Source of the DNA: Sialis fuliginosa
Taxonomy: Eukaryota; Arthropoda; Insecta; Megaloptera; Sialidae
Direction of reading: 5' to 3'
Assembly: GCA_961205875.1 (NCBI GenBank)
Contig: OY540821.1
Location: 16,058,001 to 16,122,000 of the forward strand
DNA length: 64,000 nucleotides
The first letter of the stretch is position 1. Each line of letters starts with the position of its first letter. The notes under the pieces were generated by a model that saw only the letters and a program-made list of their open reading frames with translations, had not been told where the DNA came from and ran no database searches. A program made the translations under genes and the position numbers. This document shows, piece by piece, positions 17,014 through 61,907 of the stretch.

Positions 17014-17125
17014 ATTGTAATATGTACTAAATCCACCTAAAAGTTTTTAAACCAAACCACAGTACATCTGACAAGATCACTTCAATTAAAATCTAACTCC
17101 TCCACTCCCTGGCTATAAAACATAG

Positions 17126-17383
17126 GCGGCGAATGTCCGGGGGTTGACCACCATCACCACAAAGATGTCGAGGACAAGGTGTCGTTCGCTCACCGGCTGG
17201 TTGCCGACATCAGGCAATTGTTGACATTAAAACAACACTACTACCCCGAAGGAGGTTGGGGGTGGATCATAGTGCTAGTTACCGCTATGGTGCAGATTCT
17301 AGCGCACGGGTTGCAGCTTGGGTCGGGGGTCATGACCAGCGAAATTGTCAAGAAGTTTGGGGAGGATGTTCAACAAAGTGCAG
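17126..17383 (+). CDS. Monocarboxylate transporter, second coding exon (TM1)
   Basis: This exon continues the transporter from codon 56 to the first base of codon 142. It opens after AG in phase 1 and closes at CAG followed by GTAATT, again in phase 1. Residues 64-67 are four histidines. A basic/hydrophobic juxtamembrane stretch (SFAHRLVADIRQLL) is followed at about residues 94-102 by YYPEGGWGW. That contains the [DE]G[GS][WF][GA]W signature that marks the start of helix 1 in SLC16 proteins. Helix 1 follows (IIVLVTAMVQILAHG), then GVMTSEIVKKFGEDVQQSA. MCTs normally have 12 helices and over 400 residues, so this is only the N-terminal third at most. The family assignment is firm. The paralogue and substrate cannot be decided from this part. 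Confidence 0.92.
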
Positions 17384-18634
17384 GTAATTTTTGTTACTTT
17401 TTTATGGTTGATTTGCTCAGAAGCATAAAGGATGTATGGCAGGTATCTAATTTCAACGAGAAATAGTTGAAATTTGGAGAAGTTACTCCTTTATAAATCT
17501 TAAGTACCCACACAAAATTTCAAAAGGTTTTTCAACATAGTTTGAAAGTTATTATTTTTTTTAAATTAACATGGGCTCTTATGGCAGAATGGTGTATTTA
17601 CGGTTAAAGTCCAATAAAACACATGGTTCAAGCATCGAGAAAAATCTGAAATTTTCACAACACGTCACTTACATATTTAGCAACAAGTTTCATAAAAAAT
17701 GTGAGAGAAAAAATAATTATTGCTAAAAAATATTGAAAAAAAAAATGGCGTACTGAAATGTAATAATTTGTTCTTATTACATATTTTTTCATATATGTAT
17801 GTATATGAAGTACTAATATTATTATTTTTATTACATTTAACACTAAAAATAAATGCGTGAAGCACTCATAAGTATTGCTTTTGTGATTTACGATTTCTTC
17901 AATTAAAAATCAATTCGTTACAAAAATATATTCCAAAAATCTCTTAATACGGGCCTGCCCTAATTAATTGTTCATATATCATAAAATAATTCTAGAAATA
18001 GAATATATTGCCTAAAAAGCGATATATAGACTCAAAATTTGGATGGAGTCAAGTTTAGGAGATAAATTTTTTTAATTTTTCATAAATAAATGAATTTTAT
18101 TGAGCAATTTGTATCAAACAAGGCAGCCAATAAAAATCTAAACACTTTGACTTCTGAATTACCCAAGAGACTAACAAGACTTGATTTTTTTTCTCGAATT
18201 TTATTATCTTGTTATATTTTATAACTTCAAGAATCAGATATGACCATATACATAGAAACGAAACAAATAAAAACATATTATCTCTAGCATATATGATACT
18301 CTATAAATAACAAATACATTTTTTCTACACGCCCCATTTTACTTTATGAGTCCAGTTCAAAATTAAATTATAAAATACATTGACAGAATCAAAACATGCA
18401 TCTTTATTTTATCTTGATTACAATCTGGACACATTCAAACTACAGATTACAACATAAAAAATATTCAGTCCATGACAGACGTCTGAAATTATGAGTGTAC
18501 TATGTCAGATCAAAATCTACAAAGAAAATATATTTTCGTTTAAATTACAATTAATATTATTTGAATAATTTATCGACATGAAAACTTGCAGCTAAAAGAA
18601 CTCTAAAACTATTTTTTGTTAAGTATTGTGATCT
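17384..18634 (+). other. Start of transporter intron 2; no repeat recognised
   Basis: The intron starts GTAATTTTTG and has in-frame stops soon after the donor (at 17464). No continuing MCT exon (helix 2 onward) could be recognised anywhere downstream in the window, so intron 2 may exceed 46 kb. Confidence 0.5.
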
Positions 18635-28263: not shown

Positions 28264-29173
28264 AAATTCTTATATATTTATATAGTAACTAAATGATTCT
28301 ACGTCTTATTTTCTTGTATTTTAGTCGATATTTGTATGACGAGTTGAAGGAAATTTCACTAAAAAATTTCGAATTTTTGATTTCGTTAAAAGTATGTTTA
28401 TTGTATAGAAAATGACGTGAAAAGTTGAACTGTTCAAACCGCAGGTCTGTATCTCAAATCGTTCTCGAGATACAGCCTCTCAAAGTTTTAGTTTTTTCAA
28501 ATTTTTGGAGAAAAAAGGCCATAACTTTTGAACAGGTGGTCGGAATTGATTTTAGTTGACGGATTTGGAATCAGCGTGTCAAAATCTATATAATGACATG
28601 TATAATACCTTAAAACTCGAAAAAAAAAATTTCGTGAAAAATCGAAAAAATTCAAAGGGGTATACCTTAAAAAAATGTCGATTTTTGACGAAATTTTTTT
28701 TGTTGAATTTTAAAGTATTATACATGTCATTATATAGATTTTGACACGCTGATTCCAAATCCGTCAACTAAAATCAATTCCGACCACTCGTTCAAAAGTT
28801 ATGGCCTTTTTTCTCCAAAAATTTGAAAAAACTAAAACTTTGAGAGGCTGTATCTCGAGAACGGTTTGAGATACAGACCTGCGGTTCGAACAGTTCAACT
28901 TTTCACGTCATTTTCTATACAATAAACATACTTTTAACGAAATCAAAAATTCAAAAAATTTTTGTGAAATTTCCTTCAACTCGTCATACAAATATCGACT
29001 AAAACACAAAAAAAATAAGACGTAGAGGTATTATAGTTTTATAATTGAACGTATAAATTAATATTAAATGTTATTTTTGACTTTTGGTTAAAATGTTTGG
29101 GTTGCAGATGAATATTCTAATAATATTTACACAGATTTGTATTAATTTACCCATAAAGAAAGGGAAGCACTGC
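28264..29173 (+). mobile_element. Family E repeat with internal palindrome, copy 1
   Basis: It shares with 54950-55895 an asymmetric left flank (AATTCTTATATATTTATATA), a ~730-bp palindrome (28299-29025 here), and an asymmetric right flank (AATTGAACGTATAAATTAAT). The palindrome arms contain TCTCGAGATACAGCCTCTCA and its complement. The two 62-codon open stretches inside, starting TTG and reading TDLESACQNLYNDMYN on both strands, are mirror images produced by the palindrome, not genes. Confidence 0.85.
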
Positions 29174-37897: not shown

Positions 37898-39341
37898 TAT
37901 TAACTATTCAACTTATTTGTTAAATTTTCAATTTAAATTTCTGAATAATAGCCGAAGGAGCATACGAAGGTCTTCGGGCATTAGATAGTCTTAAAGATAA
38001 TGGTGTAAGCTATATTTAAAAAAAAAACTGGAGTCTCCTCGATCGCCCCAAGCTGACATATTAACTATTCAACTTATTTGTTAAATTTTCAATTTAAATT
38101 TCTTAATAATAGCCGAAGGAGGTTACGAAGGTCTTCGGGCATTAGATAGTCTTAAAGATAATGGTGTAAGCTATATTTAAAAAAAAAACTGGAGTCTCCT
38201 CGATCGCCCCAAGCTGACATATTAACTATTCAACTTATTTGTTCAATTTTCAATTTAAATTTCTTAATAATAGCCGAAGGAGGTTACGAAGGTCTTCGGG
38301 CATTAGATAGTCTTAAAGATAATGGTGTAAGCTATATTTAAAAAAAAACTGGAGTCTCCTCGATCGCCCCAAGCTGACATATTAACTATTCAACTTATTT
38401 GTTCAATTTTCAATTTAAATTTCTTAATAATAGCCGAAGGAGGTTACGAAAGTCTTCGGGCATTATATAGTCTTAAAGATAATGGTGTAAGCTATATTTA
38501 AAAAAAAACTGGAGTCTCCTCGATCGCCCCAAGCTGACATATTAACTATTCAACTTATTTGTTAAATTTTCAATTTAAATTTCTTAATAATAGCCGAAGG
38601 AGGTTACGAAGGTCTTCGGGCATTAGATAGTCTTAAAGATAATGGTGTAAGCTATATTTAAAAAAAAACTGGAGTCTCCTCGATCGCCCCAAGCTGACAT
38701 ATTAACTATTCAACTTATTTGTTCAATTTTCAATTTAAATTTCTTAATAATAGCCGAAGGAGGTTACGAAAGTCTTCGGGCATTATATAGTCTTAAAGAT
38801 AATGGTGTAAGCTATATTTAAAAAAAAACTGGAGTCTCCTCGATCGCCCCAAGCTGACATATTAACTATTCAACTTATTTGTTAAATTTTCAATTTAAAT
38901 TTCTTAATAATAGCCGAAGGAGGTTACGAAGGTCTTCGGGCATTAGATAGTCTTAAAGATAATGGTGTAAGCTATATTTAAAAAAAAAACTGGAGTCTCC
39001 TCGATCGCCCCAAGCTGACATATTAACTATTCAACTTATTTGTTAAATTTTCAATTTAAATTTCTTAATAATAGCCGAAGGAGGTTACGAAAGTCTTCGG
39101 GCATTATATAGTCTTAAAGATAATGGTGTAAGCTATATTTAAAAAAAAAACTGGAGTCTCCTCGATCGCCCCAAGCTGACATATTAACTATTCAACTTAT
39201 TTGTTAAATTTTCAATTTAAATTTCTTAATAATAGCCGAAGGAGGTTACGAAGGTCTTCGGGCATTCGATAGTCTTAAAGATAATAGTGTAAGCTATATT
39301 TAAAAAAAAAATGGAGTCTCCTCGATCGCGCCAAGCTGACA
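37898..39341 (+). repeat. Satellite array, nine 160/161-bp monomers
   Basis: Monomers begin at TATTAACTATTCAACTTATT at 37898, 38059, 38220, 38380, 38540, 38700, 38860, 39021 and 39182, and the array ends at 39341. Conserved blocks are AGCCGAAGGAGGTTACGAA, GATAATGGTGTAAGCTATAT, an A-tract of 8-10, and CCTCGATCGCCCCAAGCTGA. Two variants alternate: GAAGGTCTTCGGGCATTAGA and GAAAGTCTTCGGGCATTATA. The pair 38380-38699 is repeated almost identically at 38700-39020. The edge monomers (first and last) are the most divergent. No reading frame. Confidence 0.97.
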
Positions 39342-40144
39342 TATTAACTGCCCATTAAACATGAAAAATTTAATTTGAATAAAAAATTAAAAATATTTAT
39401 TTAATAATTTTTTTTAAATAGAAATTGATAATCTTTTTCTACGTGAAAAAAAACTAGAACTTTTTTTGAATAACCTAAACGTTACAAGATATCTAATAAA
39501 ATATTTTCGAGATTTTGAACATTCAAGAATTTTTTACTCAAAACGTTTTTTTCAAAACGTTTGTATTTAATATTTTTAATCAATATAATTTTTAATTAAT
39601 CTGTTATTCATATTAAAACTGAAATTTTTTTTTATACATATGTTGGTAGATATATTTATATATTATACTATACTATATAATATTCTGTTGCTTTGTTCAA
39701 GTTACGACATACGAACCCTATTATAGTTTGTTAACGATGTATGTAAAATAATATGTCGTGTACTTATAGTATAGTTTATAAATACGAGTAATATACGTAT
39801 ATAATGTATGCTATTTATGAGTACCATTAATTTTTTAATGGTTTAAAATACATTAAAAGTTTATAGTGATTTGAAAATAGTTTCAGTAATTATTCTGTTT
39901 CGTTATAATTTATTTCGCTTTTATCTTCAATAGTTTTAACTATAACACTTGAGTGTATTTACTATTGATATTCAAACATTGCTTTACTTGAAATTCTGTT
40001 ACTTATTTAATTTATTTATTTAAGTCAAAGATTGGGTGTTTTATTTAAGTAACTGTCAATTAAAAAATAAAAGTTCAATAAGAAACATTTGAAAACATTT
40101 CCATCATATATTTTCTCTAATGAAACATTTTTTAAATGGTTATT
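39342..40144. other. No gene seen
   Basis: AT-rich flank of the satellite array. Confidence 0.4.
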
Positions 40145-43460: not shown

Positions 43461-43849
43461 TCAATTTTTTTTAAATGTAGCTTACACTATTATCTTTAAG
43501 AGCATCACGCACTTAAAGACCCTCGCGACCTCCTTCCCTTTTTAAAAACAAATTAAAACTCATAAACTAACAAAGAAGTAAATTGAATAGTTAATATCTC
43601 AGCTTGGCGCGATCCTACAGACTCAATTTTTTTAAAATGTTGCTTACACTATTATCTTTAAAAGCATCACGCACTTAAAGGCCCTCGCGACCTCCTTCCC
43701 TTTTTAAAAACAAATTAAAACTCAAAAACTAACAAAGAAGTAAATTGAATAGTTAATATCTCTGCTTGGCGCAATCCTACCGACTCAATTTTTTTTAAAT
43801 GTAGCTTACACTATTCGCGACCCCCTTTATTAAATATTCAACTCTAGTC
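43461..43849 (-). repeat. Diverged satellite array, about 2.4 monomers, reversed
   Basis: Units start with TCAATTTTTTT at 43461, 43623 and 43785 (period 162). Read on the minus strand they match the 37898-39341 satellite at AGATAATAGTGTAAGCTACA, GATCGCGCCAAGCTGAGATA and TTAACTATTCAA. They differ in the middle (AAGGGAAGGAGGTCGCGAGG). The third unit has a large internal deletion, after which GCGACCCCCTTTATTAAATA resumes. It is an older subfamily of the same satellite. Confidence 0.9.
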
Positions 43850-54949: not shown

Positions 54950-55895
54950 AATTCTTATATATTTATATAGTAACTAAATGATTCTACGTGTTATTTTCTT
55001 GTATTTTAGTCGATATTTGTATGATTAACGTAAGAAAATTTCACTAAAAAATTTCGATTTTTTAATTTCGTTAAAAGTATGTTTATTGTATAGAAAATGA
55101 CGTGAAAAGTTGAACTGTTCAAACCGCAGGTCTGTATCTCAAACCGTTCTCGAGATACAGCCTCTCAAAGTTTTAGTTTTTTCAAATTTTTGGAGAAAAA
55201 AGGCCATAACTTTTGAACGTGTGGTCGGAATTGATTTTAGTTGACGGATTTGAAATCAGCGTGTCAAAATCTATATAATGACATGTATAATACTTTAAAA
55301 TCCGACAAAAAAATTTTGGTCAAAAATCGACATTTTTTTAAGGTATACCCCTTTGAATTTTTTCGATTTTTCGCGAAATTTTTTTTCTCGAGTCTTAAGG
55401 TATTGTACATGTCATTATATAGATTTTGACACGCTGATTTCAAATCCGTCAACTAAAATCAATTCCGACCACGCGTTCAAAAGTTATGGCCTTTTTTCTC
55501 CAAAAATTTGAAAAAACTAAAACTTTGAGAGGCTATATCTCGAGAACGGTTTGAGATACAGACCTGCGGTTTGAACAGTTCAACTTTTCACGTCATTTTC
55601 TATACAAAAAACATACTTTTAACTAAATCAAAAAGTCTAAATTTTTTAGTGAAATTTCCTGCAGTGAACTTCAACTCGTCATACAAATATCAACTAAAAT
55701 ACAAAAAAATAAGACGTAGAGGTGTTATTGTTTTATAATTGAACGTATAAATTAATATTAAATGTTATTTTTGACTTTTGGTTAAAATATTTGGGTTGCA
55801 CATAAAGATGAATATTCTAATAATATTTTTAAATTATTTACTAACTGAAAACACAGATTTGTATTAATTTACCCATAAAGCAAGGGAAGAACTGC
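54950..55895 (+). mobile_element. Family E repeat with internal palindrome, copy 2
   Basis: The flanks have the same orientation as in copy 1 (AATTCTTATATATTTATATA left, AATTGAACGTATAAATTAAT right), but the centre of the palindrome (54984-55719) is inverted. Copy 1 reads GGGGTATACCTTAAAAAAAT where this copy reads ATTTTTTTAAGGTATACCCC. The 62-codon open stretches on each strand are mirror artefacts. The right part has an additional ~22 bp (TAAATTATTTACTAACTGAA) absent from copy 1. Confidence 0.88.
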
Positions 55896-58015
55896 GCAAT
55901 GGTAAAGTTGAGGGGCACCGAAATTGATATGACAACGAAAAAAAGTTAATTAAAGGCGCAAATAATCTTACAATTAGACCCATTTGAGGAACCTGATCCG
56001 ACGTATACAGAGTCTAGAACCTACAAAGGTCTTAGATGCCTTGTGTATAAATAATTACCTCAACATAACAAATTAATCAATGTATTACATTTTATGATAA
56101 CATTTTCAAATAAATGGTAACTGATAACAAACTCAATACAAACGCTGCAATCTAAAACCCATAAATCGTAATACCAATAGAACATCATGCTCTGATTTGA
56201 TATGGCAATGATCTGGAAGTTCATGAATCACTGGCGACATTACCGACCGATCACTACATTATCTTGTTTACTAAATCACAGGACGCGATATTATCGACCA
56301 TGATTGTACACCTAAATTAATGCATATCCTCTGTTATCATTAACGTGTCTGTAATATACTTGTAATTAAAGTGCAACGTTCTGACAGTCAAAACTGTTTA
56401 CTGAATTCATCAAGGATGAAACGGAGAACGGATTCTCAATCTTTCCTGAATGTTTTACTAATTGGAACGTGGTCTTAATTTTAGTCGTAACAATGTCCTC
56501 ATCATAGGCAAGCACCTCATCGGCGCCCCTCCCTTCCACTGTTACGTAACTTTTCATATTAAATATAACAATGAAATTTCCGAAATTCAAATATTTTCTT
56601 ATTGTTGCGTCTATATTTTGTTTGTTAAAAATTATCACTTCATCTTTTTATGCACACAAGAATCTTTTTATATTGTGTAAGTAGGTACATAGATACCTAC
56701 TTATTTTTTTGTTATTTTTCAAAAATTTTGCCCTATGGATAATCCGCCTCTGTCCTCATGCCTTTTTGATTAACAATAAAAGAAAATAACTAAAACTGCA
56801 TAACTAGTTAAATTTTCAAAAGGTACATAATGTATTTTAATAAATATCATGTACTCATTAAAACAATTAAAGATTTTATATTAAAAAGGCATAATACAAT
56901 CAAGGACTCTAGCCTGAGGACTTAGGATAATAGGAAGGGGCGGCATTTATAAATTATTTTCACACATAAAAACCTTTTTTTGTTATAATGTTTAAAGGGC
57001 TGTCCATTAACTACATAAGTATATCGGGAGATGTAGGGGGTAGTGCTTAGCATGACAAAATATGACGTGAGAGGGGAAGTGGGTAATATATTAATATATT
57101 AATATATACAACACCATATTGCATCATATATGCAAAATCATAATTTTTTAAAGCATTTTGAAACCGAAACACTATGCTTTGAAATAACACTGAAATTAAG
57201 TTTACAAACAAAGTTTACATATTTGTTTCTTTGATTTATAATCCTATAACTCTGAGGATAATGGATAATTAATTATTTTTCAGTCTGTATTAATTGTTGA
57301 AAGGTACATACATTAAAACGTTATTTTAATTTATTTACAGATACTTTTTGTATAATAATTTAGATTCCATAATTTATTTGATGAATGTGTATCTAATCTT
57401 GAGAGGCGAAACTTGAATTTATTTACGTCTCTGAATAGAATAATCAGAGTTAAATATAAAATTAATAACTTTATTTATAACGTGAAATGATCTTTGACCC
57501 ACACAACAATTTATAGCGATTTTTCACACTCTGTCAAATTACTTTAAGAAGTCTCAGACAAATCTAGTCAGCGGTGATGGTTCGAGCACTAATTTGTTTC
57601 AGCTAGATTAAAACGTCTTTTGTGACGATTGACGTAGAGAAAATAAAAAGAAGAATATAACAAATTGCAGGAACTGAATCTAAAACGAAATTTAGAGATG
57701 CAATCAAAGAGGAGTAAGTTAATAAGTCATTTGACCTCTACATTTCTTAAAACAATTCAAAGTTATTTAGGTCAATCTTGCTTCTGTACATAATTCATGT
57801 TTTCTTCATAAATAAAAATTGTTATATATTGTTGTAGATATTATAAGGTATTAATTTGCAAAAGAAAATATGTTAATTGAGGCATATACAAGTGCGTTAA
57901 ATAATAAATAACAATAAATCAGCAAAATTAGCAAAACAGTAATCTTGTACTGTAAAAATTACAGTTGACGTACCAAAAATATTTTATATTATATTTTCGA
58001 CAATAAATTGAACAT
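55896..58015. other. No gene that can be supported
   Basis: 56366-56638 has a 90-codon minus-strand open stretch (EGRGADEVLAYDEDIV, and so on) over a GC-richer patch (CACTGTTACGTAAC beside GGCGCCCCTCCCTTCC). This looks like a decayed hAT-type element end, but no domain is certain. GGGCTGTCCATTAACTACAT near 56998 is a common insect TE terminus without a partner. The remainder is AT-rich. Confidence 0.35.
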
Positions 58016-60234
58016 TAGTGGAGAGCCGTAAGGCATAGAAATCTTAAAACCTCGGAATCCAGGGCCAGTCAATGAATCTTTATGAAACCTTTTGGAATGT
58101 GTTTTTAACACTTAATAGAAAAAAGTTAAAAAAAAAATTTTGGACGGTCTCAATTTTTTATATATTAAAATTAATAATTGGGTCATTCCATATAAAATCA
58201 TCAAGGGCTGAAGTTGCAACATTTTTAATTTTGATGAAAGTTTAATCATTTGTTATTATACTTATTAGATAGCAGAAATTGCAGTTAGAAAATTTTTAAT
58301 GGTCATAGTTCGTGGGTGGTGACCATTTTACCCTCTTAAGATACGAAGATTTCGTCGATTTTCAACGTTTTTTCAACTCGTTATAGCACGCGTTCTAATA
58401 AAGCAATTATAACGGGCTTGATGTCATTTGAAAGCATAAAAAGTCTAGTTTCAAATAATCTAGCACGATTTTAAGTTTAAATATTTTTTTTTGTAGATAG
58501 AGGCTTTTTAATTTTATTAATAATATTGTCATTTTTTCTATTTTTCGAAATTTATTGTGGCTTAAAGGTTAAACTGAGAAAGCTATAATTATGTGTAAGT
58601 TATGTTCATTTATAGTACTCAGTACCCACAAAAAATCAGCTTGATTGATGCACATTTTTTATTAAAAAATGTTAGTTAAATATCGCAAAAATCCCGAAAA
58701 CACCAAAATCAGCTTCGAAACAAATAGCGGGAAAAAAAAAATTTGGAGAAATCTCATAGAATCTTTTTTAAAGTACTTGAAAAGAGCTTCAAAATGAGCA
58801 CTGTTAAAAGTTGATTGTACAAAAATTGACGGAGATATGATACAAATAAAATTAGTATTAATATTTTTCAGCGTAAAAATTATCAACAATACCCCCACCA
58901 TTACCACCAAAATTAAAATTGGACGTAATCCTTCTACAATTCCTTTCACTTGAGTACTATCAATGTGATCCAGGAGTTTTGACCGTTTTAAATGCCTGGT
59001 TTTAAAAAAAAGTTTGATTGAAATGACGAGAGATTTTTTATAATTTCAAAAAAGATTGTCTTTTTTTTTTAATTACTCAAAAACTAATACAGATACAAAA
59101 AAATAGCAATAATAAAAAAAGTTGGGATTTTTTATTTACTATAAGTTTTTTTTTTTTTTTCTGTAGCATTAAAAATAATTGAGTTATGAACGTTTGAAGT
59201 TTGTATGTTACAGTGAAAGTCCCCTTTCCCTGTCCCTTTAAACGGAATAATTTTTAAAATGAAGGGTTCAAATAAGTCAAAACTCCTGGATCACATTGAT
59301 AGTACTCAAGTGAAAGGAATTGTAGAAGGATTACGTCCAATTTTGATTTTGGTGGTAATGGTGGGGGTATTGTTGATAATTTTTACGCTGAAAAATATTA
59401 ATACTAATTTTATTTGTATCATATCTCCGTCAATTTTTGTACAATCAACTTTTAACAGTGCTCATTTTGAAGCTCTTTTCAAGTACTTTAAAAAAGATTC
59501 TATGAGATTTCTCCAAATTTTTTTTTTTCCCGCTATTTGTTTCGAAGCTGATTTTGGTGTTTTCGGGATTTTTGCGATATTTAACTAACATTTTTTAATA
59601 AAAAATGTGCATCAATCAAGCTGATTTTTTGTGGGTACTGAGTACTATAAATGAACATAACTTACACATAATTATAGCTTTCTCAGTTTAACCTTTAAGC
59701 CACAATAAATTTCGAAAAATAGAAAAAATGACAATATTATTAATAAAATTAAAAAGCCTCTATCTACAAAAAAAAATATTTAAACTTAAAATCGTGCTAG
59801 ATCATTTGAAACTAGACTTTTTATGCTTTCAAATGACATCAAGCCCGTTATAATTGCTTTATTAGAACGCGTGCTATAGCGAGTTGAAAAAACGTTGAAA
59901 ATCGACGAAATCTTCGTATCTTAAGAGGGTAAAATGGTCACCACCCACGAACTATGACCATTAAAAATTTTCTAACTGCAGTTTCTGCTATCTAATAAGT
60001 ATAATAACAAATGATTAAACTTTCATCAAAATTAAAAATGTTGCAACTTCAGCCCTTGATGATTTTATATGGAATGACCCAATTATTAATTTTAATATAT
60101 AAAAAATTGAGACCGTCCAAAATTTTTTTTTTAACTTTTTTCTATTAAGTGTTAAAAACACATTCCAAAAGGTTTCATAAAGATTCATTGACTGGCCCTG
60201 GATTCCGAGGTATAAATCTTACGGCTCTCCACTA
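58016..60234. mobile_element. 2.2-kb near-perfect palindromic foldback element
   Basis: The left arm (58016-58983, ~968 bp) and right arm (59276-60234, ~959 bp) are near-identical inverted copies, bounded by TAGTGGAGAGCCGTA and its complement and separated by a ~292-bp spacer. TA/TAGT at the borders is compatible with a TA target. Mirror-image reading frames start in each arm (58662-58949 minus, 59259-59588 plus; GIVEGLRPILILVVMVGVLL). They diverge at their ends because of a one-base difference in a homopolymer (10 versus 11 A), so they are probably not selected coding sequence. No transposase motif. A true giant foldback or an inverted duplication are the two readings. Confidence 0.9.
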
Positions 60235-61907
60235 CATCTTAAAATTGATAAAATAAAATGCAATTCCCAATATTTAAAAAATGACAAATGTAATACAGGC
60301 TTTAAATTTTTTGAGCCAATACATATTGATAATGGGGGCGAACCCTTTGCTGGTGCCATTGCCGAGTTAGGGAAAATAAAATAAAAATAGAGTCAAATTC
60401 TACTGATTAAGATCTAATTTTTGATAGTCCCCCCTCCCCCCTCTTAAAAATGTGTTTTCACAAAATAAACACATCTTTGTATGGGGGCCATAACTTTCAT
60501 ATTTAGTTAAATTTTCAATTTTCTGGCTTAGGGAGGGAAAGAAAGACAAAGGAATGACAACTTAATAAATATTTAATTTTATAGCGAGAATATATTAGGA
60601 AAACAATACCAATTATATTAAAATGTCAATAATAATGAAGAAATTATAATGCTGTAAAAAATTTATAGGTAATTAAACTTACAAAAATCTTAACTGTACG
60701 AATTTTTTTGTGAATTTAACCCTGACCTTGAGCAATTCTCACTAACAAGCTATAATCAATTTTCGATAATGAGCTATGTTATATAGGTTGTGACGAAAAT
60801 AAAGAAATGCTATTTTAAAACCAAATAATACTAAAATAAATTTTAAAAAATTTTTTTGTTTCAATTATTAAATTAACCTCAAAAGTCTGAAATTTATAGT
60901 TCTTGAGCTAGTGTTTTTAAATAATACAATTGTATGTTTAAACCAGTAAACTATGATTACATAGATAACATATATATATGTATGTACAACATATAGAAAT
61001 TAGTACTTTAAATATGTAATATCCGGTGTAAAATTAAACTATGGAATATTCGGAAATCAATGTTATTTTAGATACATACAAATATTCGCTTTGCTATGGG
61101 CATATTAATTACAGGAAACATGCAAGTAATTTTTTTTGTAGATGTGAAATTTGTTTAGAAATGTATCAGTTTAAACTTCGTCCCTGGGTTAAATTTCCTC
61201 CAAGTAATTTACAAAACAGAAAATAATCTACTTAATTGTATTACAGCTTTGTATAAATAGTTAATAATAATTTTTATTTACGATTTTTTGTAAGATTAAC
61301 AGCAGAACAAATATTCGCTTGCAATTGAATTAACATTAATTTCTGTGAGTAGTTTTTATCATGCATGTTTTCAGGACACTCTGTACATATTTATTGATGA
61401 ATCTAACAATTATTATTTCGTTTTAATAATCCGTTAGAAGATTTTCACGACTACAATTTATTATAGACAAGCATGCGAACTTTTATTATCCACTTCGCCG
61501 AGATATTCTCAATTAAAAAGCAAAACAATTATTTCTATATCTTCTATAACTCATTTATTAAATACAATAAATAACTTTATATATACCCAAAGTCGTGACT
61601 GAAATAAATATAAGAATGGATTTAATTCTGAGGCGTTGTTTTGATAGATTTAAGGGATTTATTTTGGAGCAACTCTTTCGTAATGAAGTACTCTATTGTT
61701 TTAAAGGATCAAGATCTAGATTCAGGGACGCCAAAATAATAATTTTACAAGGGGCATTCTTTTCGAAATATTTTTAGGTATAGGGGTTTTTTTAAGATGG
61801 ACACCCTCAATAACTTTAACTTTAGTGGAGAAACTTATTGAATACAGTAATAAAAAATATATATATCCATTTTTCTGAAGAGGTTGAAATCGAATTTTTG
61901 GCATATA
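60235..61907. other. No gene seen
   Basis: 60340-60500 is GC-richer (GGGGGCGAACCCTTTGCTGG; CCCCCCTCCCCCCTC) and may be a TE remnant. TTCAGGGACGCC near 61719 resembles the CAGGGACG terminus at 43857. Short open stretches at 61041, 61595 and 61722 have no domain. Confidence 0.35.

Follow-up and report, generated by a model that had tools for sequence, protein, structure and literature searches.

How does an insect genome come to hold a palindrome whose two arms, each close to a kilobase long, are almost identical, and what keeps them alike? The window analysed here, a stretch of 64,000 nucleotides (C13:16058001-16122000) from a host genome of 392 Mb in 20 contigs, contains such a palindrome, the parts of which are as follows in window coordinates:

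58016..60234, whole element, probably a foldback, 2219 bp
58013..58015, left copy of the target-site duplication (CAT)
60235..60237, right copy of the target-site duplication (CAT)
58016..59008, + strand, left arm, long-tipped ('G'); high identity as far as about 58983
59251..60234, - strand, right arm, short-tipped ('A'); high identity from about 59276 on
58984..59275, + strand, loop of 292 bp, collinear with the sequence upstream of the transposase-like gene in locus L024
59276..59277, + strand, GT common to the loop side and the inverted arm at the join
58180..58721, + strand, left-arm portion in common with a second palindrome family (L031-L035), beginning GGGTCATTCC; inner end approximate
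59539..60080, - strand, right-arm mirror of the 58180..58721 portion; inner end approximate

The palindrome is real. A BLAST comparison of the element with the window returns a single inverted pair (58016-59008 with 60234-59251) that is 97.3% identical over 994 columns, and a repeat search of the window gives an inverted core of 701 nt with 99% complementarity. Arm against arm, 4 of 927 sites differ (element positions 40-968), and the 17 nt of TAGTGGAGAGCCGTAAG stand exactly at both ends. The inverted self-match reaches 1673 bits, compared with 35.6 bits for the best match in five mononucleotide shuffles of the 4.5-kb stretch. With 993 and 984 of 2219 bp, the arms make up most of the element, and the gap between them measures 292 bp by the ends of high identity (about 58983 and 59276), or 242 bp if the weaker inner homology is included. 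The first-pass annotation had described a near-perfect palindrome, and its coordinates, its termini and its arm length of ~960 bp are borne out, the arms measuring about 960-990 bp here; of its '292-bp unique spacer' the length stands and the uniqueness does not, as a genome search with the loop as query gave at least 27 matches, one of them the loop itself.

The element has no recognisable protein-coding sequence: neither of the two frames in arms and loop (123 and 127 aa) matches Pfam above the cut-off. An arm-encoded protein was also rejected from the variable sites, which number 23, 11 and 17 in the three codon phases (83 sites each) and display no third-position bias. Elsewhere in the window, two spacerless palindromes of one family, 729 and 738 bp long and 93% and 89% self-complementary, lie at 28298-29026 and 54983-55720. 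In addition, a tandem array of nine copies of a 160-bp unit (37898-39349) is followed about 4 kb away by an inverted array of 2.2 copies that is 74% alike (43461-43815), and the two are perhaps another foldback with tandem arms. A 115-aa frame at 17119-17463, which we take to resemble an exon of a monocarboxylate transporter, found no match in a Pfam search.

The genome-wide searches with an arm and with the spacer, which had been proposed together with the original description, place the element in a family. One arm as query has at least 44 matches (the best 40 of 437 candidates were scored), and copy numbers throughout are lower bounds because about 40 DNA candidates at most were scored per genome search. 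Both arms and the loop occur together at 13 places or more, on seven contigs, namely in the window copy and at L009-L020; the outer part of one arm is missing in L019, and L020 carries an insertion of about 1.4 kb close to one end. Exact 3-bp target-site duplications flank nine of these 13 two-armed copies (window CAT, L010 TTG, L011 TTA, L012 AAA, L013 TAT, L014 TTT, L016 TTA, L017 TAA and L018 TCT), eight of them independent, since the flanks of L017 are those of L016 in opposite orientation, identical over 582 and 285 bp. In the other four, the tips are damaged (L009 and L015), one tip is missing (L019) or the flanking triplets are mismatched (L020). Tc1/mariner-type TA duplications were rejected, as three more bases outside the TA are directly repeated, and CACTA elements were rejected as well, the tips reading TAGTGG...CCACTA, in the sense opposite to the CACTA motif.

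Shorter and more distant members complete the family. Four shorter members (L021, L026, L027 and L044) miss the centre or the greater part of an arm, and their end points differ from one to the next, as expected of unstable palindromes. Among shorter members with two tips, exact duplications are present in L027, L044 and L045 and not in L021. The distant relatives L051, L059 and L060 have two tips each, for which an exact duplication was not found, and for L052 and L053 the second end was not found within the sequence examined. One further candidate variant, L046, was rejected as an inverted pair of cuticle-protein genes, whose insect cuticle domain (PF00379) points to an arthropod host.

Empty sites were recovered for two copies. 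For L016, the two flanks were joined after one duplication had been taken out, and the resulting sequence matches over 220 of 220 bases at all 40 scored places (2196 candidates); L016 therefore sits in a very common repeat. This repeat contains tandem units about 216 bp long, and the most plausible reading of L017 is the same repeat copied along with its passenger. For L014, all 40 scored matches (1703 candidates) cross the joined flanks at 90-96% identity. For the window copy, no clean empty site was found in its own genome, where the only full-length matches are its own two flanks; 11 of 41 rows cross the join with 68-92% identity over 39-167 query bases, and the insertion site may lie in an old repeat. 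Taken together, the arms dominate a non-coding element that exists in many copies with duplications and, for L014 and L016, empty sites, and we consider it with good confidence to be a non-autonomous foldback DNA transposon, which agrees with the 'large foldback element family' that had been among the original suggestions.

The arms of these copies are not independent of one another. Within one copy the arms diverge by 0.2-2.4% in all 13 copies compared, and between copies, same-side arms are generally no closer than opposite-side arms, with the group L010-L012 as the exception. When the 12 copies that remain without L017 (its flanks being identical to those of L016) are paired as found, their arms have 127 mismatches, whereas 500 random pairings average 294 and never fall below 215. 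Summed over 79 informative sites, the mismatch between arms amounts to 4.9, compared with 18.8 expected. A tree of the same copies places both arms of a copy together as sisters in 8 of 12 cases (the exceptions being L010, L011, L012 and L015). Furthermore, L013, L016 and L017 carry the loop flipped with respect to the tips, which makes 3 of 13 copies or 2 of 12 independent ones. Sister arms together with flipped loops indicate that the arms convert or exchange, and the arm-to-arm gene conversion that the first-pass annotation had offered as one option is supported by this within-copy pairing, outside L010-L012 and L015. Its other option, recent formation, fares less well, as a fresh origin at each locus is unlikely given that the copies have one loop in common.

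The same observations would also follow if, in place of conversion after insertion, the palindrome were copied anew from one arm whenever the element transposes, by way of a hairpin or single-strand intermediate for instance, since either process would yield both the arm pairing in 8 of 12 copies and the loop flips in 2 of 12. We regard this as possible and rather doubtful. L010 and L011 are separate insertions, with the duplications TTG and TTA, yet they differ at 0 of 929 sites in their long-tip arms and at 1 of 926 in their short-tip arms, compared with 6 of 926 and 7 of 927 within each copy. At least one transposition has therefore kept two distinct arms, and conversion does not accompany every move. 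Selection is a still less probable cause of arm identity: a hairpin locus used by the host, whose folded transcripts feed small-RNA silencing, would draw on a geometry that yields a kilobase duplex if transcribed, but copies at other sites pair their arms in the same manner, so that the pairing needs no selection at the window locus, and we think this reading very unlikely. Hairpin transcripts of the palindrome, if made, may nonetheless yield the endogenous siRNAs that the first-pass annotation had proposed.

A search of the genome with the terminal motif TAGTGGAGNGCC found 84 places (43 + 41), compared with 3 + 6 for the reversed-pattern control. At two loci, L057 and L058, two pairs of these motifs delimit copies of one element, with the duplications TAT and TTG; L058 contains an open frame of 402 aa, the counterpart of which in L057 is broken by a stop. 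With this frame as query, the genome has at least 44 matches, one of them inside L024 between arm pieces. L024 combines arm pieces of 96-97% identity and the loop with two frames of 854 and 616 aa, which overlap in different phases and start 647 bp from the loop, and L022 consists of tip, arm and the first part of the loop, followed 1.0 kb further by a relic that is 83-88% like the L024 protein. A transposase-like gene, or what is left of one, is found at both loci 0.6-1.0 kb downstream of the arm and of the complete or partial loop.

From the 84 motifs, 8 inward motif-to-gene pairs at five loci were counted, compared with 0.16 expected, and an outer-side match to the transposase occurs at one motif of the 84 (one outward pair). 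The count used 114 of 121 transposase rows (seven second pieces at already-entered loci were left out) together with PF13359 rows as a control, and the chance value assumes uniformity and understates the repeat-dense C14. Four of the eight pairs sit on C2 and C4 at the loci of L057 and L058, from which the query protein or a near twin of it was taken; the fair count is therefore four pairs at three loci. The PF13359 control gave 2 inward pairs, compared with 0.2 expected, both on one repeat-dense stretch of C14.

The control bears on a competing source of mobility, in which a PIF/Harbinger transposase moves the element and the proximity of its arms to the other transposase-like gene is due to chance. 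The 3-bp duplications would fit PIF/Harbinger too, the genome has 146 DDE_Tnp_4 matches, one of them in the outer flank of L009 at a distance of about 130 bp, and a DDE_Tnp_4 frame lies inward of two C14 motifs and in L061. Against this, the two PF13359 pairs come from one stretch of C14, whereas eight pairs (four without the query-source loci) involve the other protein, and in L022 and L024 the arm and loop are contiguous with the gene of that protein and at neither locus with DDE_Tnp_4; a PIF/Harbinger source thus appears highly improbable. In L061, on the repeat-dense C14, less than 2 kb separates a DDE_Tnp_4 frame from a relic of the other transposase-like protein. Finally, an assembly artefact or a one-off inverted duplication, which the general tendency of long palindromes to be misassembled might suggest, is next to impossible in the face of at least 13 two-armed copies on seven contigs with flanks of their own, nine exact duplications and two empty sites; the absence of other copies or of transposon-like borders, named at the outset as the sign of such an origin, was not what the genome returned.

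The genome searches revealed no intact parent belonging to exactly this family, and only L022 and L024 join arm, loop and gene: L024 misses its 5' tip, has two tips of the 3' side and a gene split over two overlapping frames, and L022 is decayed. Four single-arm loci checked as possible parents (L047-L050) have no transposase match. From the sequence comparison, the foldback is likely a shortened relative of a long element with this transposase-like gene in the same genome. A related family is represented by the element at L062:275-6191, with an open frame of 1551 aa, inverted ends of 595 bp that are 95.8% alike and a TTA duplication; a frame of this length occurs at 11 places or more with nearly equal score, and elements of this type are apparently young.

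The tips and the loop give indications of how the shortening may have occurred. In all 12 copies that are readable at both ends the tips are unlike: apart from small variations, GTAAGGCATAGAAATCTTAAAACC follows in one tip and GTAAGATTTATACC in the other. A short tip paired with a long one is seen in L051 and L060 too, which are distant and short relatives. The 5' tip of L022 is of the short type and both 3'-side tips of L024 are of the long type; it is from these two loci that the polarity of the tips is read. Starting in the arm, L024 stays collinear with the window element across the loop as far as 59277 and from there continues towards the gene, and past 59277 the window element turns back into the inverted arm, with GT as a microhomology of 2 bp at the join. 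Relative to L022, the loop has the reverse sense in 10 of 12 independent copies and the same sense in 2 of 12.

We infer from these features that a longer element with the transposase-like gene may have been broken at its 3' end and repaired with its 5' end as template, whereby about 960 bp of the 5' end would have been copied inverted and joined at the 2-bp microhomology. All that was retained of the former 3' end would be its outermost 30-odd bp, which would explain why the tips are unlike in every readable copy. Since its formation, the foldback would have been moved in trans by the transposase of the long element, while its arms would have gone on converting or exchanging with each other. 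The collinearity of L024 and the tip polarity fit a model in which the 5' end served to repair a broken 3' end, like the one put forward for the Galileo transposon (PMC3573991).

Each arm also contains an older part. About 540 bp, from 58180 (GGGTCATTCC) and from its mirror at 60080 inwards, match the palindrome family L031-L035, whose members span 2.6-3.5 kb and have 4-bp duplications in all five cases (AATA, ATGT, CTCT, TTTC and TATG); a sixth member, L028, has its left end beyond the sequence examined. The arms of L033 repeat a unit of about 178 bp, and the other four members align with L033. In the window, AATT flanks this portion on both sides, which fits an insertion of the L031-L035 family into the ancestor of the foldback, as we infer it to have occurred.

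The foldback, its likely parent, the join of loop and second arm, and independent copies with arm pairing and loop flips are thus offered by one genome, and this makes the repair model of foldback origin directly testable.

To which lineage the long element belongs is suggested by its duplications and its protein. AcademX transposons possess a nuclease domain of the XPG type. Pfam and PDB searches with the transposase-like protein returned nothing convincing; in its C-terminal part, motifs collinear with archaeal FEN-1 are found (VFDG, DDAD, EDxD and GCD), for which an hhalign comparison, with few sequences on either side, is weak (probability 1.8%, P 0.028). For AcademX, duplications of 3 or 4 bp and an encoded nuclease are given in PMC10045372, and the duplications here are of exactly 3 bp in 9 of 13 two-armed copies. 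The 3-bp duplications and the weakly FEN/XPG-like C-terminus suggest an AcademX-like lineage, and we do not claim membership. In the literature searched, which excludes most subscription journals, no paper joining Academ and foldback elements was found. As a speculation to which we attach a small likelihood, the ancestor of the foldback lineage may have been an AcademX-like transposon with a nuclease of the flap type; by acting on folded ends, this nuclease would make palindromes and the rewriting of arms a regular by-product of transposition and not a rare repair accident; the other long-armed elements (L062 and L031-L035) would then be products of the same tendency.

Among known systems, MITEs are non-coding, carry terminal inverted repeats and are moved in trans. 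The window element is non-coding, has terminal inverted repeats and would be moved in trans as well, but it consists almost entirely of its arms of about 1 kb. Foldbacks of the Mutator or P type (FB, Galileo and Tetris-like elements) have target-site duplications of 7-10 bp, compared with 3 bp in the window family. Tetris, a foldback of Drosophila virilis, is described as non-coding, with long inverted arms around a middle domain, tandem repeats in the arms, duplications of 8-10 bp and no partner found (PMC4079207). The window element is similar in its non-coding, long inverted arms around a middle part, and the arms of L031-L035 likewise contain tandem repeats, whereas the window family differs in its 3-bp duplications and its candidate parent. 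A close structural counterpart is given by the '2RT' copies of Galileo in Drosophila mojavensis, a member of the P superfamily with a THAP-domain transposase, in which the stretch that follows TIR1, still upstream of the transposase segment, is repeated inverted before TIR2 (TIR1-F1-F1-TIR2), the TIRs within a copy are 98-100% alike, and break repair from the other TIR is suggested by the authors (PMC3573991). The window element has the same TIR1-F1-F1-TIR2 extension in a different lineage, distinguished from Galileo by its 3-bp duplications and by a different protein of about 1,500 aa.
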